Shown piece by piece: positions 1,633 through 19,814 of a stretch of 64,000 bases of DNA. A model generated the notes under the pieces. That model ran no database searches. It had not been told where the DNA came from and saw only the letters and a list, made by a program, of their open reading frames with translations. Within the stretch, counting starts at the first letter, position 1. The number at the start of each line of letters is the position of its first letter. The stretch is from the NCBI RefSeq assembly GCF_014200015.1, contig NZ_JACHOT010000007.1:1-64000 (forward strand), written 5' to 3'. A program made the position numbers and the translations under genes. This DNA comes from Aminobacter niigataensis (GTDB taxonomy: Bacteria; Pseudomonadota; Alphaproteobacteria; Rhizobiales; Rhizobiaceae).

Positions 1633-2241
1633 TTGGACAGTGCACCGGTGAAGACGATCCTTAGTCGCCCGGTCTACGGAACATTGTCACCGCAGGCCGG
1701 CAAGAGCCACCTTCTCATTGCGGACGCCGAAGGGGCGTCCGCGATCCTGGACCTGGCGAAGCAGGCTCCCGCGGACTTCTTCGCCAGTGCACACATTATG
1801 TTCATACCGGGCCGGACCGGAGACAGCTTTCAGGCATCCCTGAAGGCGTTGAAGCCGGCCCAGTATTATGAAGGCCCCTCGATCGCGGCGGCATTGCCGC
1901 GCCTGACATGGACACTTGCCAACGCCCACATGGGCTTGCGTGTCTATCTCGCCGGCACGGAAGGCCTGATCGGCCAGATGATGCAGGCTGCAATCGAAGC
2001 CGGCATCGACCCGGCCTCGATCCAGACCGAACATCGCGGCTCCTGGGCACGCCGGGTGCAGTGCGTGCACTGCAAGGGCATTACCGAAAACGTCACCACC
2101 CAGCCGGCAACCTGCTCGCATTGCGGCCTGCTGCTTCTGGTGCGTGACCACTATTCCAAGCGCCATGCCGCCTTCCAGGGCGTCTGCATCAACGCCGAGG
2201 ATCCGACCGAGATCCCTCAGACAGAGGAGATTTTCCGGTGA
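1633..2241 (+). CDS. dmmA: Dimethylamine monooxygenase small subunit (DmmA-like)
   Basis: A 202-residue protein. The C-terminal part carries two CxxC pairs (CVHCK near residue 140 and CSHCG near 157) followed by RDHYSKRHAAFQGV, the arrangement expected of the DmmA-like C-terminal domain, a probable metal- or cluster-binding knuckle. The frame begins at TTG 1633, four bases after the dmmD stop; GTG 1648 is a second possible start. Its last bases overlap the next gene's GTG start, so the genes are translationally coupled. The role is as a subunit of the haem-dependent dimethylamine monooxygenase; its exact part in electron transfer cannot be read from the sequence. Confidence 0.75.
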   Translation: MDSAPVKTILSRPVYGTLSPQAGKSHLLIADAEGASAILDLAKQAPADFFASAHIMFIPGRTGDSFQASLKALKPAQYYEGPSIAAALPRLTWTLANAHMGLRVYLAGTEGLIGQMMQAAIEAGIDPASIQTEHRGSWARRVQCVHCKGITENVTTQPATCSHCGLLLLVRDHYSKRHAAFQGVCINAEDPTEIPQTEEIFR

Positions 2242-3203
2242 GCGCAGGAACAAACAAGATTAACGTCACCGTGACCGAAGTGGTCGCGGTCAACGAACTG
2301 GTCAAGCGGTTCCATTTCGAACGGACGGACGGCGGCAATCTGCCGACGTTCTCCGGCGGTGCCCATGTCGTCATCGAAATGCGCGACAATGGCACGACCC
2401 GCCTCAACCCCTACTCGCTGATGAGTTCGCCGCTCAACACGCGCGACTACACCATCTCGGTGCGCCGCGACGATGTCGGCCGCGGCGGCTCGCTGTTCAT
2501 GCACAACCGCGTCAAGCGCGGCATGGAAATGGTGATCAGCTATCCGGTGAACCTGTTTTCGCTGGATCTGCGTGCCAAGAAGCACCTGATGATCGCCGGT
2601 GGCATCGGCATCACGCCGTTCCTCGCCCAGACGGCGCAACTGGCGTCGACCGGCGGCAATTTCGAGCTGCACTACACCTGCCGCTCCGAAGCGCTCGGCA
2701 GCTATTCCGAGGTGCTGCGCGAACGCTACGGCAACCGGGTCAGCCTCTATCTCGACGAGCGCAACGAACGCATCCCGCTCGAGCGCCTGCTCGCCACCCA
2801 GCCGCTCGGCACGCATATCTATGTCTGCGGCCCTGCCGGCATGATCAAATGGGTGCGCGACACGGCGGCCACCCATGGCTGGCCGGACGATTCCGTGCAC
2901 TACGAACATTTCGCGGCGCCGCAGCCGGGTACGCCGTTCGACGTCAAGCTGGCGGTGAGCGGCCTGGAGATCCGGGTCGGCGAGCAGCAGAGCCTGCTCG
3001 AAGCGATCGAGGCTGCGGGCGTCGATCCGCCCTATCTCTGCCGCGGCGGTGTCTGCGGCCAGTGCGAGACCAACGTCATTTCCTATGACGGTACATTCAA
3101 GCACAACGACCATTGGCTGAGCGATGAGGAGCACTGCTCGGGCAAGAAGATCATGCCATGCGTCTCGCGTTTCGAGGGCCGCTCGCTGGTTCTCGAACGG
3201 TAG
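2238..3203 (+). CDS. dmmB: Ferredoxin-type oxidoreductase of the dimethylamine monooxygenase (PDR/VanB family)
   Basis: A 321-residue phthalate-dioxygenase-reductase-like protein. The flavin domain has the RLNPYSLMSSP motif near residue 55, the pyridine-nucleotide domain has AGGIGITPFLAQ near 121, and the C-terminal plant-type [2Fe-2S] domain has CRGGVCGQC near 268 with the fourth Cys in IMPCVSRF. It passes electrons from NAD(P)H through flavin and the iron-sulphur cluster to the haem demethylase. It starts with GTG 2238 in a four-base overlap with dmmA. The same family serves Rieske demethylases, but the partner here is the DUF3445 protein next door. Confidence 0.8.
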   Translation: MSAGTNKINVTVTEVVAVNELVKRFHFERTDGGNLPTFSGGAHVVIEMRDNGTTRLNPYSLMSSPLNTRDYTISVRRDDVGRGGSLFMHNRVKRGMEMVISYPVNLFSLDLRAKKHLMIAGGIGITPFLAQTAQLASTGGNFELHYTCRSEALGSYSEVLRERYGNRVSLYLDERNERIPLERLLATQPLGTHIYVCGPAGMIKWVRDTAATHGWPDDSVHYEHFAAPQPGTPFDVKLAVSGLEIRVGEQQSLLEAIEAAGVDPPYLCRGGVCGQCETNVISYDGTFKHNDHWLSDEEHCSGKKIMPCVSRFEGRSLVLER

Positions 3204-3245
3204 CAGATCCCGGGGCGCCCGACGCTCTGGAAGAGGGAGGAATTG

Positions 3246-4286
3246 ATGGGAATAAACTTCAGGAAAGAAACGTTCCGCGACGATTTTACCTTCAGGAACA
3301 GTCCGGAACAGGTCAAACGGTTTCCGTTTCCCTATCATGAAGACGCCTACATGTACTCGGTCAACATCGAGCCGCATGTCGCCGGGCCGAAGAACAGCGT
3401 GTTCGAACATCTGATCGATGTCGACGAGCACTACGTATCCGAAATGCAGGACCGCGCCATGGTGCTTGCGGAGGATCCGCTGCGCTGCCAGTCGCTGCCG
3501 CACATGACACTCGCCGGCTGGGACCTGCTCGAACTCTTGATGACCGAAATGGCCAAGGGCTATCCCGAGCACTTCACCTTGACCCAGGACGGCGACCGCT
3601 GGCGCTGGATCAACCGACCGCTCGGCATCGACGACACCTTCACCTTCGGCGACGTTTCCACCCTGCCCTACGGACCGATGGAATACATCACCCGCCAGAG
3701 CCAGGGCGACTTCGCCATTCTCGACCAGCGTGACGGCAACCTGTGGATGGATGCCGGCATGATCACCACACAGGCCGACTGGTCGCTCGATTTCGACATC
3801 GGCATGAACTTCTTCGAATGGCATGCCCCGGTGCCGCTGGCGCATGAAATGGGTGTCTTCACCCGTGCGCTGAAGTTCCTGACCAACATCCAGCAGGGCC
3901 AGCCGGCGCGGCGCCTGAACTGGACCATGACGATCAACCCGCGGCTCGATACCAGCCCGGAAAACTTCCACAAGTGGGGCAGCGACCGACTGTCGGTCAC
4001 GGCTGAGAATGTCGGCCAGAAAGTGCATCTGCGCGTCGAGCTGCAGACCTTCTTCCGGCTGCCGCGCTCCAACGCTTTGGTCTTCCCGATCCGCTGCTAC
4101 CTGCTCAAGATGGACGAATTGGTGAGCGTGGCGAAATGGGGACGTCGCTTCCATCGCGTGCTGCGCGACCTGCCGGATGAACTCGCCGAGTACAAGGGCC
4201 TGACGCGTTACCGCCAGACCGTCGTCGAGTGGCTGTCGAAATACGACGACGGCGCCCCGACCTCGCCCGGCTTCGGCCCGGAGTAG
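3246..4286 (+). CDS. dmmC: Haem-dependent oxidative N-demethylase, DUF3445 (DmmC-like)
   Basis: A 346-residue protein of the DUF3445 / haem-dependent oxidative N-demethylase family. Recognisable parts are the N-terminal FPFPYHEDAYMYSVNIEPH region, the central VNRPL-type segment (WRWINRPLGIDDTF, about residue 120) and the conserved FFRLPRS near 270. It would oxidise dimethylamine to methylamine plus formaldehyde with O2 and reducing power from the reductase. ATG 3246 was chosen over the adjacent TTG 3243 because of the gagggagg site upstream. It is the last gene of the set and is followed by a strong bidirectional terminator. Confidence in the family is high; the substrate is inferred from gene order. 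Confidence 0.8.
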   Translation: MGINFRKETFRDDFTFRNSPEQVKRFPFPYHEDAYMYSVNIEPHVAGPKNSVFEHLIDVDEHYVSEMQDRAMVLAEDPLRCQSLPHMTLAGWDLLELLMTEMAKGYPEHFTLTQDGDRWRWINRPLGIDDTFTFGDVSTLPYGPMEYITRQSQGDFAILDQRDGNLWMDAGMITTQADWSLDFDIGMNFFEWHAPVPLAHEMGVFTRALKFLTNIQQGQPARRLNWTMTINPRLDTSPENFHKWGSDRLSVTAENVGQKVHLRVELQTFFRLPRSNALVFPIRCYLLKMDELVSVAKWGRRFHRVLRDLPDELAEYKGLTRYRQTVVEWLSKYDDGAPTSPGFGPE

Positions 4287-4323
4287 GCACAGAATGATCG
4301 GCATGGGCTTCGGCCCATGCCCC

Positions 4324-4365
4324 GCAAATGAAAAAGGAGGCGATTTCGCCTCCTTTTTCATTTGC
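4324..4365. terminator. Bidirectional terminator between dmmC and the convergent regulator
   Basis: A perfect 20-base-pair stem (gcaaatgaaaaaggaggcga and its complement) closes on a two-base loop; it carries A-rich and T-rich ends so that it can stop transcripts from both sides. A smaller hairpin, ggcatgggc/gcccatgcc, lies just before it (about 4300-4321). Confidence 0.9.
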
Positions 4366-4396
4366 GGCCTCTCTGTAGCCGGTCGTTCCAGGCAGC

Positions 4397-5092
4397 CTAT
4401 TCGCTGCCACTGCCCTGCGGGTAGGAGATGATCGAGAGATAGCGGATCGGCAAAGTGGTCAGTTCTTCCGGGCCATGCGGTGCATCGGCGTCGAAGAACA
4501 GGCTGTCGCCCGGCGTCATCCGGTAGAGTTTGTTGCTGTGGCGGTAAACGACCTCGCCTTCCAGCATGTAGAGGAACTCCATGCCCTCATGCTGGAACAT
4601 CGGAAACACGTCCGTGTGTTCCGACAGTGTGATGAGATAGGGCTCGACCACCACACCCGCGGTATTGGAGCCGATATGACCCAGGAGGTTGTACTGGTGC
4701 CCTGCGCGAGTGCCGCGGCGTTCGACGTCGACCCCTTCGTTCGCCTTGACGAAGACGGCGTTCCGCTCCTCCTCGAAGCGGCGGAAAAAGGCGGTCAGCG
4801 GCACGCCGAGCGCCCGCGACAGCGATTGCAAAGTGGTCAGCGACGGCGAGGTGATGCCGTTCTCGATCTTCGACAGCATGCCTAGCGAAATGTTGGTCAT
4901 CGCCGCGAGATCGGCAACGGTGATGCCGAGCTTCTTGCGGAAGGCGCGGACCTCGTGGCCGAGTGCCACCTCCAAAACCTTCTCCGGGGTATCGCGTACC
5001 GCGTGCGGATCCTGAAGCAGCGGTGTCGGGCGCGCCTTTGCGGCGACCGCAGCCGATATGTTCTTGCCCTCGGCGACAGCGACGGCTGACAT
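4397..5092 (-). CDS. XRE-family regulator with cupin domain, probable regulator of the dmm operon
   Basis: A 231-residue regulator. An N-terminal XRE helix-turn-helix (about residues 45-105, with ITVADLAAMTNIS and LGMLSKIENG) is followed by a double-stranded beta-helix cupin (about 150-225, ending in PGDSLFFDADAPHGPEEL). XRE-cupin proteins often sense small amines or their oxidation products, as PuuR does. It is convergent with dmmC across a shared terminator. I chose ATG 5092, which has an agaag site; TTG 5131 would add 13 residues. That it regulates dmm is inferred from position only. Confidence 0.8.
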   Translation of the reverse strand: MSAVAVAEGKNISAAVAAKARPTPLLQDPHAVRDTPEKVLEVALGHEVRAFRKKLGITVADLAAMTNISLGMLSKIENGITSPSLTTLQSLSRALGVPLTAFFRRFEEERNAVFVKANEGVDVERRGTRAGHQYNLLGHIGSNTAGVVVEPYLITLSEHTDVFPMFQHEGMEFLYMLEGEVVYRHSNKLYRMTPGDSLFFDADAPHGPEELTTLPIRYLSIISYPQGSGSE

Positions 5093-5296
5093 GCGGTCTT
5101 CTTTCACCCTGATAATCCCCTGCGATGGCAACTCTTGAAATCGACCTTTTCACTAGTGGTAAAATTTTTTTCCAACGATATCAAGTGGCGCTGATCGAAA
5201 TGCAGGCAATATGCCTCTCATTGACTGCATTTCCGGCGGAAAATGCAGCACGACATGCAGCGGATGTGTGGGGTGCCGATCGTCTTGGCTTGCGGC

Positions 5297-6220
5297 TCAG
5301 CCGCGCATCAAAGCCTGAAACTCGGCGGGCGGCAGCAGGGCGCCGTGATGGCCGATGACGGTTGCGGCGACACGGGCTGCAAATTCCGCGGCAAGGCAGT
5401 GATCACCTGAAACGAGATACTTCGCCAGGAACGCGCCGTTGAAGCTGTCGCCGGCACCCGTGGTGTCGAGGACATTCCGGGCGGCGACCGAAGGCACGAA
5501 GACCGTCTCGCCGCCGAAGCGCAACGTAATGCCCTCCGCGCCATCCTTGACCACGAGGTTCTCGACGCCGAGGCTGCCATAGCGAGCGATGGTCGCATCG
5601 ATCGAGGCGTCGCCGAAATGCGTCGCCTCGTCTTCGAAGCTCGGCATGACGATAGTCGCCGCCGCAGCGCCGGCCGAGATCGTCCGGCGCATCGTGTCGG
5701 CATCGTCCCACAGCCGCGGGCGGATGTTGGGGTCGAATGCGACCATCTTGCCGGCAGCCCTGCCCCGCCGGATCTCCGATAGCAGCGTTTCGACTGCGCC
5801 AGGCGAAAGGATCGCCAGCGTGATGCCGGAGAACAGGATCACGTCCGAAGCGTCGATAGCCATGCGAAGGGCTGCGGGATCATCGGCGAGCAACCGAGCG
5901 GCGGATACCGAGCGCCAGTAGGAGAAGCTGCGCTCGCCATCCTTGAGGTGGATCATGTAGAGGCCGGGCGTGCGCTCGGGCACGCGCCTGACGAAGCCGG
6001 TGCCGACCCCCGTGCTCTCGATGAAGGCCAGAAGCTCGTCCGAGATCGTATCGGTGCCGACGGCGGTGAAATAGTCGACCGGCCACGCCGCAGGCAGGAA
6101 GGCACGCATGTAATAGGCGGTGTTGAAGGTATCGCCGGCAAAACCCTTGCGCAACAGGCCGCCCTCGGCCTGCCTGAGTTCGACCATGCATTCCCCGATC
6201 AAGAGAGCGCGTTGCGACAT
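5297..6220 (-). CDS. kdgK: PfkB-family sugar kinase, probable 2-dehydro-3-deoxygluconokinase
   Basis: A 307-residue ribokinase/PfkB protein. The N-terminal GECMVELR and GFAGDTFNTAYYM regions and the C-terminal DTTGAGDSFNGAF motif (ATP site with catalytic Asp) match KDG kinases, which phosphorylate 2-keto-3-deoxygluconate to KDPG for the Entner-Doudoroff pathway. It is the last gene of an apparent operon running down from the binding protein at 10544, 42 bases after the IclR gene. The neighbouring PLP enzyme and RidA suggest its KDG comes from deamination of an amino sugar acid. Another 2-keto-3-deoxy sugar acid is possible. Confidence 0.75.
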   Translation of the reverse strand: MSQRALLIGECMVELRQAEGGLLRKGFAGDTFNTAYYMRAFLPAAWPVDYFTAVGTDTISDELLAFIESTGVGTGFVRRVPERTPGLYMIHLKDGERSFSYWRSVSAARLLADDPAALRMAIDASDVILFSGITLAILSPGAVETLLSEIRRGRAAGKMVAFDPNIRPRLWDDADTMRRTISAGAAAATIVMPSFEDEATHFGDASIDATIARYGSLGVENLVVKDGAEGITLRFGGETVFVPSVAARNVLDTTGAGDSFNGAFLAKYLVSGDHCLAAEFAARVAATVIGHHGALLPPAEFQALMRG

Positions 6221-6262
6221 GCGGTAAGCCTATCCAGTGAGTTCAGGTCAGGGTCGGGTTGG

Positions 6263-7084
6263 TCAACCGCGGCCCGCGGCACGGACGGCGCCTTGCCCGT
6301 CCTCGTCCGCCGTGTGCCCGAGACGGCTCGACAGGTCAACTGCCGCATCCTGCAGGCTCTTGAGATAGCTGGCGTGGTTCTTCAGCCCGTCCTCGCGCGG
6401 CGCCACCAGGCACAGAGTCGCCACGCAGATGCGGCCTGCCTGATAGACCGGCACGGCAAAGCAGTGGGTGAAGGTCTCGACCGCACTGTCGAAGGTGTAG
6501 TAGCCGACGCGGGACGCCTCGCGCACTTCGGCGATGAAGACCGCCGGGTCGAGCCACTGGCCATTGGGCAAGCGGAAATCCTCCTTCGGGATGAAATCGA
6601 GAATTTCCTGGTCGCTCATATGCGCAACCAGCAGACGGCCGGACGCCGTCCACGGGATCGCCACCGGGTCGCCGACATTGGACGAGATGCGGAACGGGCG
6701 GGAGCCCTCCTTCATCTGGGCGACGGTGTATTTGTTGCCCTCGAGCAGGCACATCTGCGCCGTTTCGCGCGTCTCCTCGGCGATGTGGGTCAGCAGCTTG
6801 TCGCACTCGCGCATGAGGTCGAACTGCTCGGCATAGGCCATGCCGAGGAAATAGAGCTTGCGGCCGAGGAATACGCGGCCGTCGTCGCCGCGGTACTCCA
6901 GAACACCCTGCCGCACCAGCAGGTTGACCAGTTCGTAGATCGAGGAGCGCGGCGCGCCGATGCCCGAGGCGATCTCGTTGGGGCGCAACGGCTGACGCTT
7001 CAGGCGCAGGAAATTCAGGATCTCGAAGGCGCGGTCGAGACCGCGCGCCCGCCTGTTGGTCATGTCGTCCGAAACTTCGTCCAT
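6263..7084 (-). CDS. IclR-family transcriptional regulator
   Basis: A 273-residue regulator with an N-terminal winged helix-turn-helix (residues 15-75, RAFEILNFL and LRPNEIASGIGAPRSSIYELVN) and a C-terminal IclR effector domain. IclR proteins commonly control sugar acid and aromatic acid catabolism. It sits inside the operon between ridA and the kinase gene. The start at 7084 has a clear ggggagg site seven bases upstream. The nested palindromes between the divergent transporter and PLP-enzyme genes (10581-10617) are the likely target; that link is inference. Confidence 0.85.
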   Translation of the reverse strand: MDEVSDDMTNRRARGLDRAFEILNFLRLKRQPLRPNEIASGIGAPRSSIYELVNLLVRQGVLEYRGDDGRVFLGRKLYFLGMAYAEQFDLMRECDKLLTHIAEETRETAQMCLLEGNKYTVAQMKEGSRPFRISSNVGDPVAIPWTASGRLLVAHMSDQEILDFIPKEDFRLPNGQWLDPAVFIAEVREASRVGYYTFDSAVETFTHCFAVPVYQAGRICVATLCLVAPREDGLKNHASYLKSLQDAAVDLSSRLGHTADEDGQGAVRAAGRG

Positions 7085-7118
7085 GTACCGCCTCCCCGGG
7101 AACGCCGAGCAAAAAACC

Positions 7119-7511
7119 TTATGCCGTCACGGGTGCCTTGTAGGCGACGCAATCGATCTCGACCTTGCAATCGACCATCATACTCGACTGCACGCAAGCG
7201 CGAGCCGGCGGGTTGGCGCCGAAATACTCGGCGTAGACGCCGTTGAACGACCAGAAGTCCCGGGGGTCGTCGAGCCAGACGCCGACGCGCACGACGTCCT
7301 CCAGGCCGTAGCCGGCTTCGTCGAGGATGGCGATCAGATTTTCCATCGTCTTGCGCGTCTCGGCAATGACCCCGCCGCCGACGATCTCGCCGTTTTCCAT
7401 GGCGACCTGACCGGACACGTGGAGCCAGCCATTGGCCTCGACGGCACGGGCGAAAGGCAACGCCTGCTTGCCTGCCCCGGTCTGGCCGGTGCCGTAGCGC
7501 TTGATCGTCAT
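7119..7511 (-). CDS. RidA-family reactive imine/enamine deaminase
   Basis: A 130-residue YjgF/YER057c/UK114 protein with the family's N-terminal YGTGQTGAGKQALPFARAV, the GQVAMENGEIVGGG region, and C-terminal ARACVQSSMM, including the conserved Arg of RidA enzymes. RidA hydrolyses the imines released by PLP-dependent dehydratases to keto acids and ammonia. Its location in an operon facing a D-3-hydroxyamino-acid-type PLP enzyme suggests it works on that enzyme's product. The start has ggagaa seven bases upstream. Confidence 0.85.
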   Translation of the reverse strand: MTIKRYGTGQTGAGKQALPFARAVEANGWLHVSGQVAMENGEIVGGGVIAETRKTMENLIAILDEAGYGLEDVVRVGVWLDDPRDFWSFNGVYAEYFGANPPARACVQSSMMVDCKVEIDCVAYKAPVTA

Positions 7512-7527
7512 GCTAATTCTCCGAATG

Positions 7528-8298
7528 TCAGTTGAAAGTTGAGGTCTTGAGGAACTCCGCCAGCCGCTCGGTCTGCGGCTTGTGGAACATCTCGCGCGGG
7601 TTGCCCTCTTCGCCGATACGGCCCTGGTTCATGAAGATGACGCGCGAGGACACTTCATAGGCAAATCGCATCTCGTGGGTGACGAGCAGCATGCTCATGC
7701 CGTCGCGGGCGAGGTCCTTGATGACCTGCAGCACCTCGTTGACCAGTTCGGGGTCGAGCGCCGAGGTGACCTCGTCGAACAGCATCAGCTTGGGGTTCAT
7801 GGCAATGGCGCGGGCGATCGCCACGCGCTGCTGCTGGCCGCCGGAAAGCTGGCCGGGGTAGCGGTCGCGGCGTTCGGCGAGGCCGACGCGGTCGAGCCAC
7901 TTCTCCGCCAGGGCGCGTGCCTCGTCGCGGCGCATGCCCTTGACCTTGACCAGGCCGAGCATGACGTTTTCGGCCGCGCTCATGTGGGGGAACAGGTTGA
8001 ACTGCTGGAAGGCCATGCCGGTCATCGCGCGCTGACGGGCGATTTCCTTTTCCTTCTTGCGGCGCCGTGTGCCGCCCGAAGTCTCGTAGCCGATCTCCTC
8101 GCCGTCGATGCGGATCGAGCCGCCCTGGAATTCCTCCAGCATGTTGATGCAGCGGAGCATCGTCGTCTTGCCGGAACCGGACGAGCCGATGATCGAGATG
8201 ACGTCGCCTTGCGCCATGGTGCAGTCGACGCCCTTGAGCACTTCGACGTCGCCGTAGCGCTTATGCAGATCGCGGATTTCGAGAAGGTTGCCGGTCAT
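7528..8298 (-). CDS. Amino acid ABC transporter, ATP-binding protein
   Basis: A 256-residue ATPase of the polar amino acid (GlnQ/HisP) group. Walker A is [12 protein letters not shown], the signature motif [15 protein letters not shown], Walker [13 protein letters not shown] and the switch His is in LLVTHEM. It energises import through the two permeases encoded just before it (8309-9639). It is the only ATPase for this class in the window, so it may also serve the ATPase-less transporter at 13463-15588. Confidence 0.92.
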
Positions 8299-10617: not shown

Positions 10618-10646
10618 TTGACGTATCAAAATGCACACGGCATTGT
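10618..10646 (+). promoter_or_regulatory. Possible sigma-70 promoter of the PLP-enzyme gene
   Basis: A ttgacg box at 10618-10623 is followed 17 bases later by cattgt at 10641-10646. The -35 is good and the -10 weak. It abuts the inverted repeats, so a bound regulator would sit next to RNA polymerase. Confidence 0.4.
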
Positions 10647-10704
10647 TTGTCAAGCGGTTCGGAGGCAAGGTCCCCGACGTTCCGATTTGGAGGCAAAGCC
10701 AGGC

Positions 10705-11763
10705 ATGTTCGACAAGATCCAGACGCCCGCCGTATTGGTGGACATCGATGTGGCGAAGCGGAACATCGAACGCTTCCAGGCCTATGCCGACAGCCACGGT
10801 CTGAAGGTCCGGCCGCACATCAAGACGCACAAGCTGCCGGCCATCGCTGAAATGCAGCTCGACGCGGGCGCTGTCGGCATCACCTGCCAGAAGATCTCGG
10901 AAGCGGAAGCCATGGTCGCCGGCAGCGACCGGCTGAACGACGTGCTGATCACCTACAACATCCTGGGCGATGACAAGCTCGCCGCGCTCGTCGCACTCGC
11001 GCGCAAGGTCAGGCTCGCCGTGGTGGCCGACAATGCGACCGTGATCGACGGGCTGTCTGCGGCATTTGCGGATGCAGGCGTCACGCTCGATGTCTTCGTC
11101 GAATGCAACACCGGCGCCGACCGCTGCGGCGTCGGCTCGCCCGAGGCGGCCGCCGAGTTCGCCTCGCGCATCGCCTCAGCGCCGGGCCTGCATTTCGCCG
11201 GGCTGATGACCTATCCGCCGGTCGGCGGCGCGGCCAAGGTCCAGACCTTCATGACCGAGGCCAAGGCGCTGATCGAGGCCAAAGGCATCGCGGTTCCCGC
11301 CATCACCTCGGGCGGTTCGCCCGACATGATGCTGGCGCATCTGGCGCCCGCCACCACCGAGTTCCGCCCCGGCACCTATGTCTACAACGACCGCTCGCTG
11401 GTCGCCGGCGGCGTCTGTAGCTGGGACGATTGCGCGCTGACGGTGCTTGCCACCGTGGTCTCGGTGCCCGCGCCCAACCGCGCCATCATTGATGCCGGTT
11501 CAAAGACGCTGACCTCCGACCTGCTTGGCCTCACCGGCCACGGCCATGTCCTCGGCCGCCCCGACATAGCAATCGACCAGTTGTCGGAGGAACACGGCCG
11601 CCTGCGCTGCGAGGGCGACATCGGCCTCAAGGTCGGCCAGCGTATCCGCGTCGTGCCCAACCATGCCTGCGTCGTCACCAACATGGTCGACGGGGTCCAT
11701 GTCTTCGGCGAGGACCGCGCCCCCGAACTGTGGCCGGTGCCGGCACGCGGCAAGATCATCTGA
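10705..11763 (+). CDS. Fold-type III PLP enzyme, D-threonine aldolase / D-serine dehydratase family
   Basis: A 352-residue alanine-racemase-fold enzyme. Near the N-terminus RPHIKTHK (residues 36-43) holds the Schiff-base lysine (Lys40 by family pattern); the C-terminal NHACVV supplies His320 and Cys322, the metal ligands of D-serine dehydratase and D-threonine aldolase. Family members act on D-3-hydroxy-2-amino acids by aldol cleavage or dehydration. Facing a transporter, RidA and KDG kinase, it may dehydrate a D-amino sugar acid such as D-glucosaminate to 2-keto-3-deoxygluconate. The start is ATG 10705, as upstream extension lacks support. The exact substrate is not shown by the sequence. 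Confidence 0.8.
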   Translation: MFDKIQTPAVLVDIDVAKRNIERFQAYADSHGLKVRPHIKTHKLPAIAEMQLDAGAVGITCQKISEAEAMVAGSDRLNDVLITYNILGDDKLAALVALARKVRLAVVADNATVIDGLSAAFADAGVTLDVFVECNTGADRCGVGSPEAAAEFASRIASAPGLHFAGLMTYPPVGGAAKVQTFMTEAKALIEAKGIAVPAITSGGSPDMMLAHLAPATTEFRPGTYVYNDRSLVAGGVCSWDDCALTVLATVVSVPAPNRAIIDAGSKTLTSDLLGLTGHGHVLGRPDIAIDQLSEEHGRLRCEGDIGLKVGQRIRVVPNHACVVTNMVDGVHVFGEDRAPELWPVPARGKII

Positions 11764-13308: not shown

Positions 13309-13462
13309 TCCACAAAACCTCGAACTTTCGGAACGGCCGTTCTTGAGAATCAGATTCTCCAGAAACTATTGTATCCAAAGCGATTGCCGTCCTTGGTGGC
13401 TTTAGCAATTTGCGATATAACCCAAACATTCAGTTTTCAAGCAGCCCATTCAAGGAGTGATC

Positions 13463-14266
13463 ATGGGAATTGTGCGGACAGCCCTGCTGGGCCTCATTGC
13501 GGTCTTCGGCGTGAGCGCGGCAAGTGCGCAGGATTACAAGGCCGCCCTCGTGACAGCCGACACCATCACGGTCGGCACGTCGGGCTCGGCTCCGCCTTTC
13601 AGCATGACCAATGCCGCGGGCGAACTCGAAGGCTTCGACATCGACGTCGTCAATCTCGTCGCCAAGCAGTTTGGCCTCACCGCCAAGTTCGAGAAGCTCG
13701 ACTTCGCCGGCCTGCTGCCGGGCCTGAGCGCCGGCCGCTTCGACCTCATCGCCTCGGGCGTGACGCGCACACCAGAGCGCCTGGCGTCGAAGGACTTCTT
13801 CCTGCTGTCGCCCTACATCGTCAACGGTGCCGCCATCACCCGCCGCGAGGCCGACACCGGCATCGCCAGCTGGAAGGACGTCTGCGGCAAGACCATGGGC
13901 GCGGTGCGCGGCGGCGTCTTCCAGAAGGTCGCCAAGGAAAAGCTGCCGGCCGACTGCGTCACCGAAAGCCGCGAATATCCCGGTGCGACCGAGCTGTTCC
14001 TCGACCTCGAGAACCGCCGCATCGACTTCGCCGCGCATGACTTCCTCGGACCGAAATATCTGACCAAGTCGGGCAAGCTGACCGGCACGGTCACGCTCGA
14101 CGACCTGCTGACGACCATCACCCAGAGCGTTGCCGTCAGCAACAAGAACAAGCCGCTGGCCGACGCCATCGACGCCCAGTTCGAGACATGGCGCAAGGAC
14201 GGCACGCTGCAGGGCCTCGCCGACAAGTGGTTCGGCGCGTCGATCGACTGGTCGAAGGCGCAGTAA
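13463..14266 (+). CDS. Amino acid ABC transporter substrate-binding protein
   Basis: A 267-residue family 3 binding protein with a signal peptide (MGIVRTALLG to VSAASAQ, about 23 residues) and the typical GFDIDVVNLVAKQFGL segment. ATG 13463 has aaggag six bases upstream, better than GTG 13457. It heads a three-gene set with two permeases. The nearby racemase and DadA suggest a basic or neutral amino acid, possibly a D-form, as ligand. Confidence 0.88.
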   Translation: MGIVRTALLGLIAVFGVSAASAQDYKAALVTADTITVGTSGSAPPFSMTNAAGELEGFDIDVVNLVAKQFGLTAKFEKLDFAGLLPGLSAGRFDLIASGVTRTPERLASKDFFLLSPYIVNGAAITRREADTGIASWKDVCGKTMGAVRGGVFQKVAKEKLPADCVTESREYPGATELFLDLENRRIDFAAHDFLGPKYLTKSGKLTGTVTLDDLLTTITQSVAVSNKNKPLADAIDAQFETWRKDGTLQGLADKWFGASIDWSKAQ

Positions 14267-14293
14267 ACAGCGTTCCCGGAGGGGCGGCCGGAC

Positions 14294-14938
14294 ATGGAAA
14301 TTGCGATTGCGTGGCTGCCGCGGCTGCTGGTTGCGGCAGTTCTTACGATTGCGCTGTCGGCGGTGATCTTCACCCTGTCGGCAGCGGTCGGCCTCCTGCT
14401 TTCGCTGGTCCATTACGGCCGCGAGAAATCGCTGCCGCGCGCAGGCATCGAGGCGTTCAGCGCCTTCTTCCGCTCGGTGCCGGAACTGGTCGTGCTGTTC
14501 CTGTTCTTTTTCGGCGGGCCTCAGATCGGTGTCGACTTCGGCCCCATCGGCTCGACAATCATCGCCTTCACCCTGGTCGGTATCGCCTTCGACTACCAGG
14601 TGTTCAAGGGCGCGCTGAAGGCCATTCCATTCGGGCAATATGAAGCCGGGCTCGCGCTCGGCCTGCCCAAACCGGTGGTGTTCCTGCGCGTGCTGGTCCC
14701 GCAGATCCTGCCGTTGGCGCGCAAGGGTTGGATCACCTATGCCATCGGCACCGTCAAGCGCATGTCGATCGCGTCGGCAGTGTCGGTCAGCGAGATCCTC
14801 TATGTCACCAAACAGGGCATCGCCGCCACCAACGCGCCCTTCACCTTCCTGACGCTGGCCGTCGGGCTCTACATCCTGATCGTCACGCCGCTGCTTGTGT
14901 TCAACGAGCGCAAGCCCAAGCAAGCGGTGGCACGATGA
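14294..14938 (+). CDS. Amino acid ABC transporter permease
   Basis: A 214-residue permease with membrane spans and the EAA loop YEAGLALGLPKP (about residues 116-127). A ggagggg site precedes ATG 14294. Its stop overlaps the next permease's ATG in the atga arrangement, so the two are coupled. Confidence 0.9.
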   Translation: MEIAIAWLPRLLVAAVLTIALSAVIFTLSAAVGLLLSLVHYGREKSLPRAGIEAFSAFFRSVPELVVLFLFFFGGPQIGVDFGPIGSTIIAFTLVGIAFDYQVFKGALKAIPFGQYEAGLALGLPKPVVFLRVLVPQILPLARKGWITYAIGTVKRMSIASAVSVSEILYVTKQGIAATNAPFTFLTLAVGLYILIVTPLLVFNERKPKQAVAR

Positions 14939-15588
14939 ACATCCTGCTCGATCCGACCTACCAGCGCATGCTGCTTGACGGGCTCGGCATGACGCTGCTG
15001 ATCTCGGTGATCGTCATCATCGTGTCGAACCTTCTGGCGCTGCCGCTTGCCATCTACATGCAGCGGCCCGATGGAGCCTTCCGGCGCCTGATCATCGCCT
15101 ACAGCTTCTTTGCCCGGGCGGCTCCTGTCCTGGCGCTGCTGTTTGCGCTCTATTACGGCCTGCCGCGGCTCGGCATCTACCTAGAGCCGGTGCCCTCGGC
15201 GCTGATCGGCCTGATCTTCGCCTCGACCGCCTACAATCTCGAATTCCTGCGTTCGGGCTTCGAAAGCGTGCCCCAAGGCCAGCTCGATGCCGCAAGGGCG
15301 CTCGGGCTGAAGCCCTTCGCCATCTATTGGAAGGTGATGATCCCGCAGGCCTACCGGCTGGCGGCACCGTCGCTGTTTTCCAATGCCATCCAGATGGTCA
15401 AGGGCAGTTCGCTCGCCAGCCTGGTCGCCATCGACGAACTGACCGCTGCCTCGACCACGATCATCGCCGAGACCTACAAGGCGATCGAAGTGTTGCTGGT
15501 CGTATCGGTGTTCTACCTGCTGATCGCAGCCGTCATCATCGGCCTGCAGTATCTCTACGAATCCCGCCAGCGCCTGAGCCGGCGATAA
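14935..15588 (+). CDS. Amino acid ABC transporter permease (partner)
   Basis: A 217-residue permease, the second half of the channel, with the EAA-type loop QLDAARALGLKPF (about residues 116-128). It starts in a four-base overlap with the preceding permease gene. No ATPase gene follows; the next gene is on the other strand, so this importer must use an ATPase encoded elsewhere. Confidence 0.9.
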   Translation: MNILLDPTYQRMLLDGLGMTLLISVIVIIVSNLLALPLAIYMQRPDGAFRRLIIAYSFFARAAPVLALLFALYYGLPRLGIYLEPVPSALIGLIFASTAYNLEFLRSGFESVPQGQLDAARALGLKPFAIYWKVMIPQAYRLAAPSLFSNAIQMVKGSSLASLVAIDELTAASTTIIAETYKAIEVLLVVSVFYLLIAAVIIGLQYLYESRQRLSRR

Positions 15589-15597
15589 GAGCGGGTT

Positions 15598-17424
15598 TCA
15601 GAGAATACGCTTGCCAAAGGCGGACATGACGAAGTTGACCGCTTCGGCGGCGACGCGCGGCTCGGTGTCACCGCCAAGACCGGAAACATCCATCGACAGC
15701 ATGCCGCCCGAGAGCGCTATCGTTTCCATCGCCTGGTGCGTTTCGCGCACGGTCATGCCGCCCGATCCGCCGCTCCATCCGGCGATTTCGGTTGCCGACG
15801 GCGAATAGCTGACGTGGAACCCGGTCGTTCCCGCGGAGGCGATGCGGATCGCCTCGCGCATCACCTCGCGCATGCCGGAACCGTCGATCTCGGCCATGGT
15901 GAAAGCGCTCACGCGCGAATCCTTGAGGATGCGCACCTCAGCCGGGTCGGCCTCGCGCAGGCCGACCAGCACGACATTTTCGGGCGACAGCTGCGGCTGC
16001 AGCGCACCGGGCTTGTGGTCGAGGCCAAGCGCCCGTGCCAGCACCGAGCTTTCCGGTACGTCGTCGCCGTCTTCGCCTTCGGGCATCAGGGCGGCGATGG
16101 AATCGATCCAGATCAAGCCAAAGGAATGCGTCGCCTCGGCTGCAGCGGCCAACGCTTCGGACGCAGTGTGCCTGTCGGCGCCGGCATGCAGCCTGAGAAG
16201 GCCGGCCGGCGGGTGCTCGGCATCGGCGATCTCGACCACGTCGAACTGCATCTGCTCGAGCCGGGCACCGGCTGAGTGCCGTGCGAACACGGGTCCGGCC
16301 TCTGCGTCGGCAATGATCGAGACCATGCGGCGGCCGGTGAAATCCGCGATGTCGTGCATCGGCGCCTTCTCGACATATTCCGAGGTCATCGCCGTCAGCA
16401 GCGCGCCGTAGTTCATGTGGAAGCTGACACGGTCGCCGACGGAGAGCGGCGGCTCGGCATCTGTGATGTCGAGCACCAGATGGTCGCTCGACGCGCCAAG
16501 CACGCGCACGCCCGGATTGATCGGCACCAGCCCCTCGATCATCGTGTCCTCGCGCCCGATATTGGCGATGCCACGCAGCCTGTCGCCCTCGTCGACGAAA
16601 ACCGGCTGATTGCCGAAGGCGTCGTAGCCGGATTCGCCGATCGGCAGCGACGGCTTGGTCTTGACCTCGATCAGGTCGCCGGCGAGCCTGAAGGCGTTGA
16701 ATTCCAGCTCCCTCCACGGCTCTTCGCGGAAGGTTTCGTAGCCGCCCTGCAGGATCGCCTCGCCGATGCGCAGATTGTTGATGCCGGCAGGCATCTTGCC
16801 TTCGAGCAGGAGCGGCAGCGACGACGAGTTGCCGCCCGACACCCAGTCGAGGCTGATGCCGGCAAGCCGCTCGACCTTGTAGGCATAGGCGACGAGCTGG
16901 CTGAGGTTTTCCTCGCTCGGCATGATGGCGCCGAAGCAGGTCAGGTTGGTGCCTAGGCCGGCGATGCGCACGCCTGGCAGTTCGAGCACGCGCTCGACCG
17001 TCGGCAAAAGGTCGTTCGGCCAGATACCCTCGCGCAGGTCGCCGAGGTCGACCATCAGCATGATGTCGTGGACCCGGCCTATGCGCTGGGCGATGCGCGA
17101 GATCTCGCGGATGATCTCCAGTTCCGACTGCAGGCTGATGTCGACGGTGCGCACCACCTCCTCGACACGCGAGATCGGCGGGCTGCGCAGCAGCATGATC
17201 GGGCAGCCGATGCCGCTTTCGCGCAGGCGGCGGATGTTTTCGAAGCGCGACTCGGCAAGCCCCGCCACACCGCCACGCAGCATGGCACGCGCCACCTGCG
17301 GCATGCCGCAGCTGCCCTTGGTAACGCCGAACACCTTTATGCCGGATTGCGCGCTGCGTTCCACGACTGCGCGGGCGTTGCGCTCGATGCGACCGAGATC
17401 AATGGCGACTTGCGGTCCCGACAT
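15598..17424 (-). CDS. Fusion of ornithine/alanine-racemase-like domain with degenerate arginase-like domain
   Basis: A 608-residue protein with two parts. Residues 1-355 are a fold-type III PLP racemase of the alanine/ornithine racemase group; the PLP lysine is in VFGVTKGSCG (Lys36) and the phosphate region around SGGNSSSLPLL (196-206). Residues 370-608 resemble a ureohydrolase: GADRH at 415-419 replaces GGDHS, WIDSIAA at 439-445 replaces WxDAHAD, VLVGLREADPAE at 485-496 keeps the arginase pattern, SYSPS at 539-543 replaces SFDxD, and GGMTVRET at 555-562 matches GGLTxRE. Most manganese ligands are lost, so this half is probably not a hydrolase. It follows dadA after nine bases. A racemase feeding a D-amino-acid dehydrogenase is the likely scheme. 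Confidence 0.7.
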   Translation of the reverse strand: MSGPQVAIDLGRIERNARAVVERSAQSGIKVFGVTKGSCGMPQVARAMLRGGVAGLAESRFENIRRLRESGIGCPIMLLRSPPISRVEEVVRTVDISLQSELEIIREISRIAQRIGRVHDIMLMVDLGDLREGIWPNDLLPTVERVLELPGVRIAGLGTNLTCFGAIMPSEENLSQLVAYAYKVERLAGISLDWVSGGNSSSLPLLLEGKMPAGINNLRIGEAILQGGYETFREEPWRELEFNAFRLAGDLIEVKTKPSLPIGESGYDAFGNQPVFVDEGDRLRGIANIGREDTMIEGLVPINPGVRVLGASSDHLVLDITDAEPPLSVGDRVSFHMNYGALLTAMTSEYVEKAPMHDIADFTGRRMVSIIADAEAGPVFARHSAGARLEQMQFDVVEIADAEHPPAGLLRLHAGADRHTASEALAAAAEATHSFGLIWIDSIAALMPEGEDGDDVPESSVLARALGLDHKPGALQPQLSPENVVLVGLREADPAEVRILKDSRVSAFTMAEIDGSGMREVMREAIRIASAGTTGFHVSYSPSATEIAGWSGGSGGMTVRETHQAMETIALSGGMLSMDVSGLGGDTEPRVAAEAVNFVMSAFGKRIL

Positions 17425-17433
17425 GGCAGCACC

Positions 17434-18684
17434 TTAGCCCTTGTAGACCAGTCCCGTGGGGTCGATGTCGGGTTTGCGCCCCGCCACTAGGTCGGCAAGG
17501 AATTTGCCGGAACCGCAAGCCATGGTCCAGCCGACATGGCCGTGGCCGGTGTCGAGATAGAGCCCCTTGTAGCGGGCGGGGCCGATAACCGGCACCGAGC
17601 CCGGCATCATCGGCCGCAAGCCGGACCAGACCTCGGCCTTGGCCGGGTCGAAGGCACCGGGGAACAGTTCCTGGCCCGTCTCGAACATCCGCTTGAAGTC
17701 CGACGGCTTGTGGCTGCGGTCGAAGCCGGTGAATTCGGCCGTCGAGGCCATGCGCAGACGGTCGCCGAGGCGCGAATAGGCGACCATCCGGTCCTCATCG
17801 ACGCCGCCCATGGTCGGGCCTTTCGACGGGTCGTCCATGGTGACGGTCGCGGTGTAGCCCTTGACCGGATAGACCGGCAGGTCGATGCCGTTGCGGCGGC
17901 CGAGCAGGCCGCTCTCCGGTCCCATGGCGATGACCACGGCGTCGGCATCGAGACGTCCGGCCGAGGTCTTCACGCCGGTCACGCGGTCGCCTTCGACGAT
18001 CAGGTCCTCGACCGTGGTGTCGAACATGAACTTCGCGCCGAGCTTCTGTTCGGCATAAGCGGCGAGCGCTTCGACGAACATGCGGGAATCGCCTGTCTGG
18101 TCCATCGGCGAATAGACGGCGCCGGCGATGCTGCCCCTGGCTGCGGCCAGCCCGGGTTCGAGCTCGGCCATCCTGCTGCGGTCGACAACCTCGATATCGA
18201 GCCCGTGCTCGGCGAGGAAGCCGTACATCCTGGCACCATGTTCGAGGCTTTCCTGCGAGCGGAAGAAATACATGATGCCGCGGGCGCGCTTGTCGTAGCC
18301 GATGCCTGTCTCGGTCGAGATCTCGTTGATGCACAGGCGCGAATAGAGTGCGAGCCTGAGCTTGGCTTCGGTGTTGATCCTCATCCGGGCATTGGTGCAC
18401 TGGAACAGGAAACGGAAACTCCAGGCATAGAAATACGGATCGAGCCCGAGCCGGACCTTGATGCCGAGGTCGGGCGTGTAGAGTGATTTGATGAAGGTCT
18501 TGAGCGCTGCCGGCGAGGCCCACGCGGTGGCGTCGCCTGGAGACACCAGGCCGGCATTGGAGTAGCTGGTGCCGCGCGCCGCCGCCGGATGGCGCTCGAC
18601 GACCGTGACGTCATGGCCGTCGCGGGACAGATAGAAGGCGGCCGCAGTTCCCACCACGCCCGCCCCGAGAACGAGGATTTTCAT
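17434..18684 (-). CDS. dadA: FAD-dependent D-amino-acid dehydrogenase, DadA type
   Basis: A 416-residue FAD oxidoreductase of the DAO/DadA family. The N-terminal dinucleotide fold is VLGAGVVGTAAAFYLSRDG; SNAGLVSPGDA follows at about 42-52, and the C-terminal LDTGHGHVGWTMACGSG is typical of DadA. It oxidises D-amino acids to keto acids and ammonia, passing electrons to the respiratory chain at the inner membrane. It is the first gene of a two-gene operon with the racemase fusion. The substrate range (D-Ala, D-Orn or other) cannot be told. Confidence 0.87.
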   Translation of the reverse strand: MKILVLGAGVVGTAAAFYLSRDGHDVTVVERHPAAARGTSYSNAGLVSPGDATAWASPAALKTFIKSLYTPDLGIKVRLGLDPYFYAWSFRFLFQCTNARMRINTEAKLRLALYSRLCINEISTETGIGYDKRARGIMYFFRSQESLEHGARMYGFLAEHGLDIEVVDRSRMAELEPGLAAARGSIAGAVYSPMDQTGDSRMFVEALAAYAEQKLGAKFMFDTTVEDLIVEGDRVTGVKTSAGRLDADAVVIAMGPESGLLGRRNGIDLPVYPVKGYTATVTMDDPSKGPTMGGVDEDRMVAYSRLGDRLRMASTAEFTGFDRSHKPSDFKRMFETGQELFPGAFDPAKAEVWSGLRPMMPGSVPVIGPARYKGLYLDTGHGHVGWTMACGSGKFLADLVAGRKPDIDPTGLVYKG

Positions 18685-18818
18685 GTCGCACCCTGGTCGA
18701 CATCAGGCTCTGTCGGGAACCCTTTACCGTCGGGAGCCTGGCTCCTCCTGGCCACCTTTTAGCGCCTGTCGCGGCAGATTTCGAGAGAGCGGCGCAGAAA
18801 TCCACCACTTGGGCCTGG

Positions 18819-19814
18819 TCAGCCCCCGGCGGAGTTCTTGCGCGACAGCTGCTGCTCCCAGTTGAGTGCGTCGTGGACGATCGCATCGAGATCGTCGCGC
18901 TGCGGGTTCCAGCCGAGTTCGCCACGTGCCAGGTCGGAATTGGCGACCACCGAGGCGGCATCGCCAGGGCGGCGCGCACCCATCTCCACCGCGAAATCCG
19001 CGCCATGGACGCGTCGCACGCTGTCGATGACCTCGAGCACCGAATAGCCGTGGCCATAGCCGCAATTGGCGACGAGATTGCCGCCGCCGGCGCGCAGACG
19101 GGCAAGCGCCAGTCGATGCGCGGCGACGAGATCGGAGACGTGGATGTAGTCGCGCACGCAGGTGCCGTCGGGCGTGGCATAGTCGTCGCCGAAGACCTGC
19201 ATCGACGCCCGCTTGCCGAGTGCGGTCTCGCAGGCGACCTTGATCAGGTGGGTAGCGCCCTTGGTCGACTGTCCGGTGCGCCCCTTGGGGTCGGCGCCGG
19301 CGACGTTGAAATAGCGAAGTGCGGTATAGCGCAGCGGGTGCGCGGCGGCGGCGTCGCGCAACATCCACTCGCTCATCAGCTTGGACAGGCCGTAGGGCGA
19401 TTCCGGCGCCAACCGGGCGTCCTCGACCACCGGTTCCATGCCGGCTGCGCCATAGACCGCGGCGGTAGAGGAAAAGATGAAGTGCTTCACCCCCTCGCGC
19501 ACCGCCGTCTCGATCAGGCTGCGAGTCTTGCAGGTGTTGTTCTCGTAGTAGCCGAGCGGATCGGCGACCGATTCCGGCACCACGATCGAACCGGCGAAGT
19601 GGATGATGGCGTCGATACCGTGATCCCGGATCAGCTGGCCGAGCAATTCCTTGTCGGCGACGTCGCCTCGCACCAACGTCGCTTCCGGCGCCACGGCCCA
19701 TTCGAAACCGGTCGACAGCCGGTCGAGCACGACCACCTGTTCGCCCGCATCGAGCAATTCCCACACCATGTGGCTGCCGATATAGCCCGCACCGCCCGTC
19801 ACCAGGACCGCCAT
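18819..19814 (-). CDS. galE: UDP-glucose 4-epimerase
   Basis: A 331-residue short-chain dehydrogenase/reductase of the extended type. The N-terminal TGGAGYIGSH binds NAD; SSTAAVYG and YGLSK hold the catalytic Ser and Tyr-Lys; RYFNVAGAD is a GalE hallmark. It interconverts UDP-glucose and UDP-galactose for surface polysaccharides (ExoB in rhizobia). ATG 19814 has ggggagag upstream; an in-frame TTG two codons earlier is less likely. The 134 bases between it and dadA hold no gene that I recognise. Confidence 0.9.
   Translation of the reverse strand: MAVLVTGGAGYIGSHMVWELLDAGEQVVVLDRLSTGFEWAVAPEATLVRGDVADKELLGQLIRDHGIDAIIHFAGSIVVPESVADPLGYYENNTCKTRSLIETAVREGVKHFIFSSTAAVYGAAGMEPVVEDARLAPESPYGLSKLMSEWMLRDAAAAHPLRYTALRYFNVAGADPKGRTGQSTKGATHLIKVACETALGKRASMQVFGDDYATPDGTCVRDYIHVSDLVAAHRLALARLRAGGGNLVANCGYGHGYSVLEVIDSVRRVHGADFAVEMGARRPGDAASVVANSDLARGELGWNPQRDDLDAIVHDALNWEQQLSRKNSAGG

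Follow-up and report, generated by a model that had tools for sequence, protein, structure and literature searches.

An ornithine-racemase-like protein fused to a degenerate arginase beside dadA in Rhizobiales: a possible arginine racemase on a dead-arginase scaffold

Racemases of the alanine racemase type are dimers, and arginases are trimers or hexamers. The gene set ord, ortA, ortB, aminomutase and orr is known from Clostridia, and DadA acting on D-ornithine yields 5-amino-2-oxopentanoate, whose cyclic form is reduced to proline. An arginase-like protein without the metal pair has reportedly been found in Trypanosoma brucei, going by the title of one paper. Among described relatives without a metal site, subunit B of metformin hydrolase (MetCb) is presented as a dead, metal-free ureohydrolase with a demonstrated role (PMC11271267), and Oda of Fusobacterium nucleatum as a PLP enzyme for basic amino acids with a C-terminal arginase domain lacking metal ligands (PMC12826042). 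On the side of arginine breakdown, Rid proteins are reported to speed the D-arginine dehydrogenase reaction, whose products are iminoarginine and 2-ketoarginine (PMC5619798), and 2-ketoarginine is converted to 4-guanidinobutyrate and 4-aminobutyrate (PMC2242806). For Sinorhizobium, where arginine breakdown is tied to symbiosis, the metabolites given are 5-guanidino-2-oxopentanoate, 4-guanidinobutyraldehyde and 4-guanidinobutanoate, on which dehydrogenases and a ureohydrolase act (PMC7268258).

The window studied here is a 64,000-nucleotide stretch of DNA from Aminobacter niigataensis. It carries a single reading frame in which an ornithine-racemase-like half is joined to a degenerate arginase, as the initial annotation had proposed from the letters and as Pfam, NCBIfam, a structure model and a ligand alignment now confirm. 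The locus is laid out as follows.

13457..15588, plus strand: amino-acid-type ABC transporter, convergent (binding protein 13457-14266, permeases 14294-14938 and 14938-15588)
15598..17424, minus strand: racemase/pseudo-arginase fusion, open reading frame of 608 aa
15601..16344, minus strand: pseudo-arginase half, residues 361-608, by Pfam, profile search and structure model
16366..17415, minus strand: racemase half, residues 4-353, NCBIfam racem_Orr at 412 bits (cut-off 480)
17317..17319, minus strand: codon of Lys36, invariant in 17/17 aligned fusions
17425..17433, minus strand: gap of 9 bases separating the dadA stop from the start of the fusion, same strand
17434..18684, minus strand: dadA, D-amino acid dehydrogenase, NCBIfam PRK00711 subfamily at 441 bits (cut-off 383), the leading gene of the two

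No promoter was found by a promoter scan of 15400-18950. The fusion is 95% identical to its homologue in A. aganoensis. A further gene of the window, at 10636-11763 near a second amino-acid ABC transporter, has the same PLP fold and a D-serine dehydratase-like domain; its best NCBIfam match is the hydroxy-D-aspartate aldolase BhcC, below the cut-off.

The N-terminal half is a PLP racemase of the alanine racemase fold. Pfam Ala_racemase_N matches residues 8-224 with 101.8 bits (cut-off 24.1), and Lys36 is presumably the PLP lysine. The best Foldseek matches to the full-length model were alanine racemases (E 8.3e-20, rmsd about 5), and the best 50 matches listed were racemase-fold entries only. 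That model has a mean pLDDT of 79.4 and a pTM of 0.58, and therefore does not fix the placement of the two halves relative to each other. The half covers nearly the whole Orr model (NF040742) and falls below its cut-off, but so do unfused Orr proteins from ornithine-type clusters (L118, 407 bits; L020, 439 bits; Geosporobacter Orr reaches 502), and the missed cut-off is therefore no evidence either way. DUF1611-linked racemases gave 358 and 355 bits (two scored) and a type B fusion 341. In the tree, the racemase half groups with unfused Orr, apart from the DUF1611-linked racemases, with support of 100/99, and its nearest unfused Orr is L118, placed there with weak support.

The protein may be an ornithine racemase that turns L-ornithine into D-ornithine for oxidation by DadA, with the arginase half as a remnant of an arginase and ornithine racemase pair. 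racem_Orr is the best family of the racemase half; an unfused Orr at 50% identity (L118), whose cluster also holds ord, ortA, ortB and an OraE-like aminomutase, does not outscore the fusion on the Orr model, while the fusion exceeds the DUF1611-linked racemases; and in a Clostridia contig an intact arginase gene comes after orr. The fusion operons that are annotated or were family-searched nevertheless carry genes for 2-ketoarginine, and we regard an ornithine racemase as possible but rather unlikely.

The C-terminal half has the arginase fold, in keeping with the layout noted at first, and its best matches are bacterial arginases. Pfam Arginase covers residues 365-583 with 62.5 bits (cut-off 22), and the only NCBIfam model listed there, TIGR01229 (rocF), gives 69.5 bits, under its cut-off of 227.6. 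The best solved relative is the arginase of Bacillus caldovelox, found at E 8.2e-18 with the window protein alone and at 1e-46 with a family profile that includes one intact arginase row. Modelled alone (mean pLDDT 84.9), the domain matches solved bacterial arginases with a best E of 5.7e-17 and a TM of 0.80 by query length; the alignment behind this model held one intact arginase row (L020), which limits its independence, and the single-protein search at 8.2e-18 is independent of that row. The half is about 30 residues shorter than an intact arginase. Its diagnostic motifs are these.

15742..15762, minus strand: GGMTVRE, residues 555-561, Arg560 and Glu561 invariant in 29/29 fusions
15796..15810, minus strand: SYSPS, residues 539-543, replacing SFDxD, both Asp gone
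15874..15888, minus strand: IDGSG, residues 513-517, Asp514 invariant in 29/29 fusions
16090..16104, minus strand: DSIAA, residues 441-445, replacing DAHxD, first Asp kept, His and second Asp gone
16168..16182, minus strand: GADRH, residues 415-419, replacing GGDHS, the Mn-ligand His being Arg418

The three replacements read initially as loss of manganese ligands are all present, and five of the six ligands are gone from the window protein, the first Asp of DSIAA being the one that stays. Across 26 fusions aligned with one intact arginase (the nearly identical L012, L099 and L101 and the incomplete L018 were set aside), the six positions are kept in 4, 26, 1, 0, 0 and 0 rows. The first His is retained solely in the Taklimakanibacter group (L017, L090-L092; 4/26), and decay of the metal site was therefore graded. 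Residues of the substrate pocket fared similarly: equivalents of Asn130, Ser137, Asn139, His141 and Glu277 are kept in 0, 1, 0, 0 and 0 of 26, in an alignment that gaps make uncertain near Asn130-His141, while those of Asp183 and Glu186 are kept in 13/26 and 22/26. In contrast, Asp514, Arg560 and Glu561, which we take to be Asp204, Arg255 and Glu256 of human arginase in residue number and role, occur in 26/26 fusions and in 12/12 intact arginases; Glu256 and Asp204 are said, in the title of one paper, to bear on oligomers of the human enzyme. Of the supporting motifs singled out at the start, GGMTVRET thus holds in its Arg and Glu throughout, whereas the Asp of VGLREADPAE (human Asp183) is kept in only half of the rows. 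A second alignment, built from 29 fusions together with 12 intact arginases, shows 12 columns conserved across the two groups and 5 specific to the fusions (Leu437, Thr509, Arg519, Gly535 and Lys605). The last four are each kept in 28 or 29 of 29 fusions, and the Thr509 column is Asp in 11/12 intact arginases.

Two readings of this pattern were weighed. The pseudo-arginase might be an allosteric sensor of arginine, ornithine or a pathway product that controls the racemase: the half is under selection, Thr509, Arg519, Gly535 and Lys605 could form a new site, and part of the old pocket persists in the Glu186 and, less often, Asp183 equivalents. The rest of that pocket is gone, with Glu277, His141 and Asn130 absent from every row and Ser137 present in one, so that binding of arginine or ornithine at the old site, as once suggested, is not supported, and a sensor seems to us improbable, if still worth considering. 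The reading favoured here is that the pseudo-arginase may serve as an assembly scaffold, because the oligomer residues are kept whereas the metal ligands and most of the substrate pocket are lost; the conserved interface residues may instead have been kept for folding.

Thirty distinct fusion loci were counted (the window, L008-L018, L022, L023, L025-L027, L029, L090-L093, L099-L102, L104 and L106-L108), with same-record duplicates dropped and near-identical strains retained; L018 is cut by a contig end and visible to residue 279 only. Fusions occur in 9/397 genomes of the order (Rhizobiales), in 12/247 of the window's family (three of these belong to type B, and one is spread across two contigs) and in 1/20, 5/69 and 3/5 genomes of three further families of the order, the order and family sets overlapping. 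None was found outside the order at 1e-40 in 385 class and 349 phylum genomes, in most of which at most 3 candidates per genome were scored; within these draws the fusions belong to the window's own family only, and the other 1e-40 matches end by residue 369. Among 72,556 plasmid records there were 3 full-length matches, from Shinella, Sinorhizobium sp. RAC02 and a record labelled Roseateles, which agrees in length and in match position with contig 2 of G1310, a genome of the window's family. No Firmicutes fusion appeared in the plasmid records or in a search reaching close relatives only. Two candidates were rejected: an apparent triple fusion at L070 proved to be two genes, the first part of its 962-residue frame being out of frame with the ureohydrolase gene, and an apparent Clostridia fusion at L020, matching over residues 4-607, likewise resolves into orr and a separate, intact arginase gene.

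Type B (L106-L108 and L029) is a second subfamily, 37-41% identical to the window protein, and L106-L108 have lost a stretch from the middle of the pseudo-arginase. In a tree with 5 other ureohydrolases (L003, L005 and L006 of the six in the window genome, missed by the motif pattern used for selection, were left out), the pseudo-arginases form one clade (100/99), and the tree singles out no intact arginase as their nearest; the Arg-Glu motif was found in 1/5 of those ureohydrolases by an unaligned pattern scan. The unfused Orr L118 is placed inside the fusion group, though weakly (84/48), and the tree therefore does not settle a single origin of the fusion. The L118 cluster itself (1813-8261; ord, ortA, ortB, OraE-like aminomutase, orr) comes from an alphaproteobacterium that belongs to the window's order. 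As a separate observation, 14/16 unfused relatives examined adjoin a DUF1611/DgcN-like gene, five by family search (L074, L076, L081, L087, L088) and nine by similarity (L095, L109-L116), the exceptions being Geosporobacter L019 and L094/L118. This adjacency hints that the name ornithine racemase also covers enzymes of a different D-amino-acid pathway. Twelve such rows form a separate clade in the racemase tree.

We compared substitution rates in the two halves by simple Nei-Gojobori counts over 13 close pairs, some of which share sequences. dN/dS was 0.06-0.15 in the arginase half and 0.04-0.16 in the racemase half; dN was higher in the arginase half in 13/13 pairs and dN/dS in 11/13. The arginase half evolves faster, yet it is far from the value of about 1 expected for a relic, and with 30 distinct loci this makes the fusion a conserved family and not a decaying gene. 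The faster rate, the missing residues and the report that the decarboxylase domain of the Fusobacterium enzyme restored growth on its own (PMC12826042) all point towards a functionless C-terminal half, but given these ratios such a relic is very unlikely.

Gene neighbourhoods were surveyed at all 30 loci at 1e-20, with flanks of up to 10 kb, shorter in some. The adjacency to dadA seen across the 9-base gap in the window recurs in 23/30 loci, at 6-355 bases. The loci without adjacent dadA are L100-L102, with galE in its place, and the type B loci L029 and L106-L108; for six of these seven, the genomes have a DadA at 1e-60 whose identity is only 39-46%, and G1133 has none. L100-L102 (L123-L125) represent three genomes of one genus in which the fusion is kept and the best DadA is 43-44% identical. 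Fusion-linked DadA proteins share 67-68% identity among three genomes compared, against 34-46% for other copies (ten genomes searched), and by identity appear to be a distinct lineage. Close copies of the convergent ABC transporter adjoin the fusion in L008, L009 and L128 and are absent at the other 26 fusion loci.

Further genes accompany the fusion in some relatives. A 5-guanidino-2-oxopentanoate decarboxylase (AruI-like) lies 1.6-5.5 kb away in 9/30 loci, all nine scoring 564-776 bits against an NCBIfam cut-off of 500; none was found within 10 kb (less where flanks are shorter) at the other 21, the window included. RidA directly follows the fusion in 4/30 loci, and other neighbours are an aldehyde dehydrogenase (8/30), an ATP-grasp protein (9/30) and a C45 hydrolase (9/30). 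The L073 operon combines an agmatinase-type ureohydrolase, the decarboxylase (731 bits), an aldehyde dehydrogenase, a biotin carboxylase-like protein (771 bits), a C45 hydrolase and DadA. On the Shinella plasmid the order is permease, Usp, agmatinase, decarboxylase, aldehyde dehydrogenase, biotin carboxylase, C45 peptidase, D-amino acid dehydrogenase, fusion and RidA, the fusion there being automatically named 'alanine racemase'. The biotin carboxylase-like ATP-grasp protein and the C45 autoproteolytic hydrolase occur together in 9/30 loci and in Shinella (L017, L071-L073, L122, L126, L127, L129, L130, L173) and have no role assigned in the route considered below.

At the window locus and in its closest relatives, dadA (and galE) alone of the gene set surveyed is present. 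The window genome has a decarboxylase of 767 bits on another contig, beside an amino-acid transporter; this unlinked paralogue shares 47% identity with the operon enzyme, and the route there is therefore inferred from relatives. A decarboxylase above the cut-off is present in 21/23 fusion genomes and in 19/39 genomes lacking a fusion match (Fisher p 0.0008, a value that ignores kinship, the 39 having been picked by hand). G095 and G1065, the latter with a split copy, are the two fusion genomes without one, and a related enzyme below the cut-off occurs in all 62 genomes.

A ureohydrolase gene lies within 10 kb in 9/30 loci and is clustered with the fusion in 8, the L119 copy being 7 kb away with no visible cluster; at L070 and L120 (type B) it adjoins the fusion, without dadA. 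The pseudo-arginase might thus dock an active ureohydrolase of the pathway, in the way MetCb partners MetCa, and hold the pathway together: the clustering extends to Shinella, and MetCb is described as a metal-free binding partner (PMC11271267). Against this, the three neighbours that were family-searched (L073, L120, L016) exceed the agmatinase and not the arginase cut-off, and no ureohydrolase was found within 10 kb at 21/30 loci, the window included. Docking of this kind is, in our judgement, quite unlikely.

The linked decarboxylase, ureohydrolase and RidA point to a route from L-arginine through D-arginine and 2-ketoarginine to 4-guanidinobutyrate, whose missing first step, L-arginine to D-arginine, would fit the racemase. 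Arginine now looks a likelier substrate than ornithine, because nine loci carry the 2-ketoarginine decarboxylase beside the fusion. With a little less than even confidence, we therefore prefer an arginine racemase feeding DadA, with the dead arginase half kept as a structural part of the assembly. The racemase half would convert L-arginine to D-arginine, and DadA would oxidise this to iminoarginine and 2-ketoarginine; the latter would lose its carboxyl group, be oxidised to 4-guanidinobutyrate and finally be hydrolysed to GABA and urea. The enzymes for these later steps share the operon in some relatives, and some of them are encoded elsewhere in the window genome. The C-terminal half, arginase-derived and with its metal site gone, is not expected to cleave arginine. 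Most probably it still associates in arginase fashion and would link racemase dimers into a larger assembly, for which, given racemase dimers and arginase trimers or hexamers, a D3 hexamer of three racemase dimers is the simplest prediction. Inactivation of the arginase would also spare the enzyme's own substrate. As to history, we infer that an orr and arginase pair was fused and later switched to arginine, which would have required the arginase to be switched off; both activities meet as separate genes in the Clostridia contig, and the trees do not prove this course. The fuller account, in which a dedicated arginine racemase opens a D-arginine route to 2-ketoarginine in soil bacteria akin to rhizobia while a captured, inactivated arginase joins the dimers into hexamers and spares the substrate, is offered more tentatively. 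What the data show directly is the fusion, its fold, the ligand loss, the selection and the gene context; substrate, reaction, assembly and history are proposed on that basis.

Of the initial interpretation, the fusion, the coupling to dadA and a conversion from L to D followed by oxidation, for 'ornithine, arginine or a relative', are upheld, and a binding site for either amino acid in the former pocket is less well supported. If the preferred account is right, the racemase and D-amino acid dehydrogenase would be a new entry into arginine catabolism in relatives of Sinorhizobium, and the name 'alanine racemase' in Shinella would need correction.

Compared with known systems, the racemase half shares with Orr (NF040742) almost the full model length and a clade, whereas the fusion scores under 480, carries a pseudo-arginase and has 2-ketoarginine genes in those of its clusters that hold more genes besides dadA. 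With RocF (TIGR01229) and the solved Bacillus and Thermus arginases it has in common the fold and three oligomer-linked residues; unlike them it retains 1/6 metal ligands, lacks the general base and the guanidinium Glu, and is shorter. The protein reported from Trypanosoma brucei is likewise an arginase relative without the metal pair, from a different kingdom. DauA of Pseudomonas and the cyanobacterial and Sinorhizobium routes are described with the same post-oxidation intermediates, 2-ketoarginine arising there from D-arginine, from an L-arginine oxidase or dehydrogenase, or from a transaminase (PMC5619798, PMC2242806, PMC7268258); 'racemase' and 'D-arginine' have 0 occurrences in the main text of PMC7268258. 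MetCb offers the ureohydrolase fold as a non-catalytic partner, as the fusion does, but as a separate subunit partnering an active ureohydrolase and not fused to a racemase (PMC11271267). Outside the window, at G000:C5:176929-178798, two adjacent ureohydrolases (L005, L006) match the metformin hydrolase subunits over full length (subunit B, E 4e-223; subunit A, the chain so named, E 9.9e-243), and the window genome could be that of a bacterium able to degrade metformin.

The closest parallel is Oda, likewise a PLP enzyme for basic amino acids with a C-terminal arginase domain without metal ligands, but an ornithine decarboxylase, with two replaced ligands named for it against five in the fusion (PMC12826042). 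The N-terminus of the fusion matches racemase families in Pfam and NCBIfam and no decarboxylase family, which sets it apart from the Oda type. The earlier impression that no protein of this kind had been described thus gives way for PLP enzymes with a dead arginase, of which Oda is one; a racemase version was not found in the open-licence PMC literature. The fusion is a second, apparently independent, PLP enzyme in which an inactive arginase has been retained, and the role of such a domain can now be tested in two systems.
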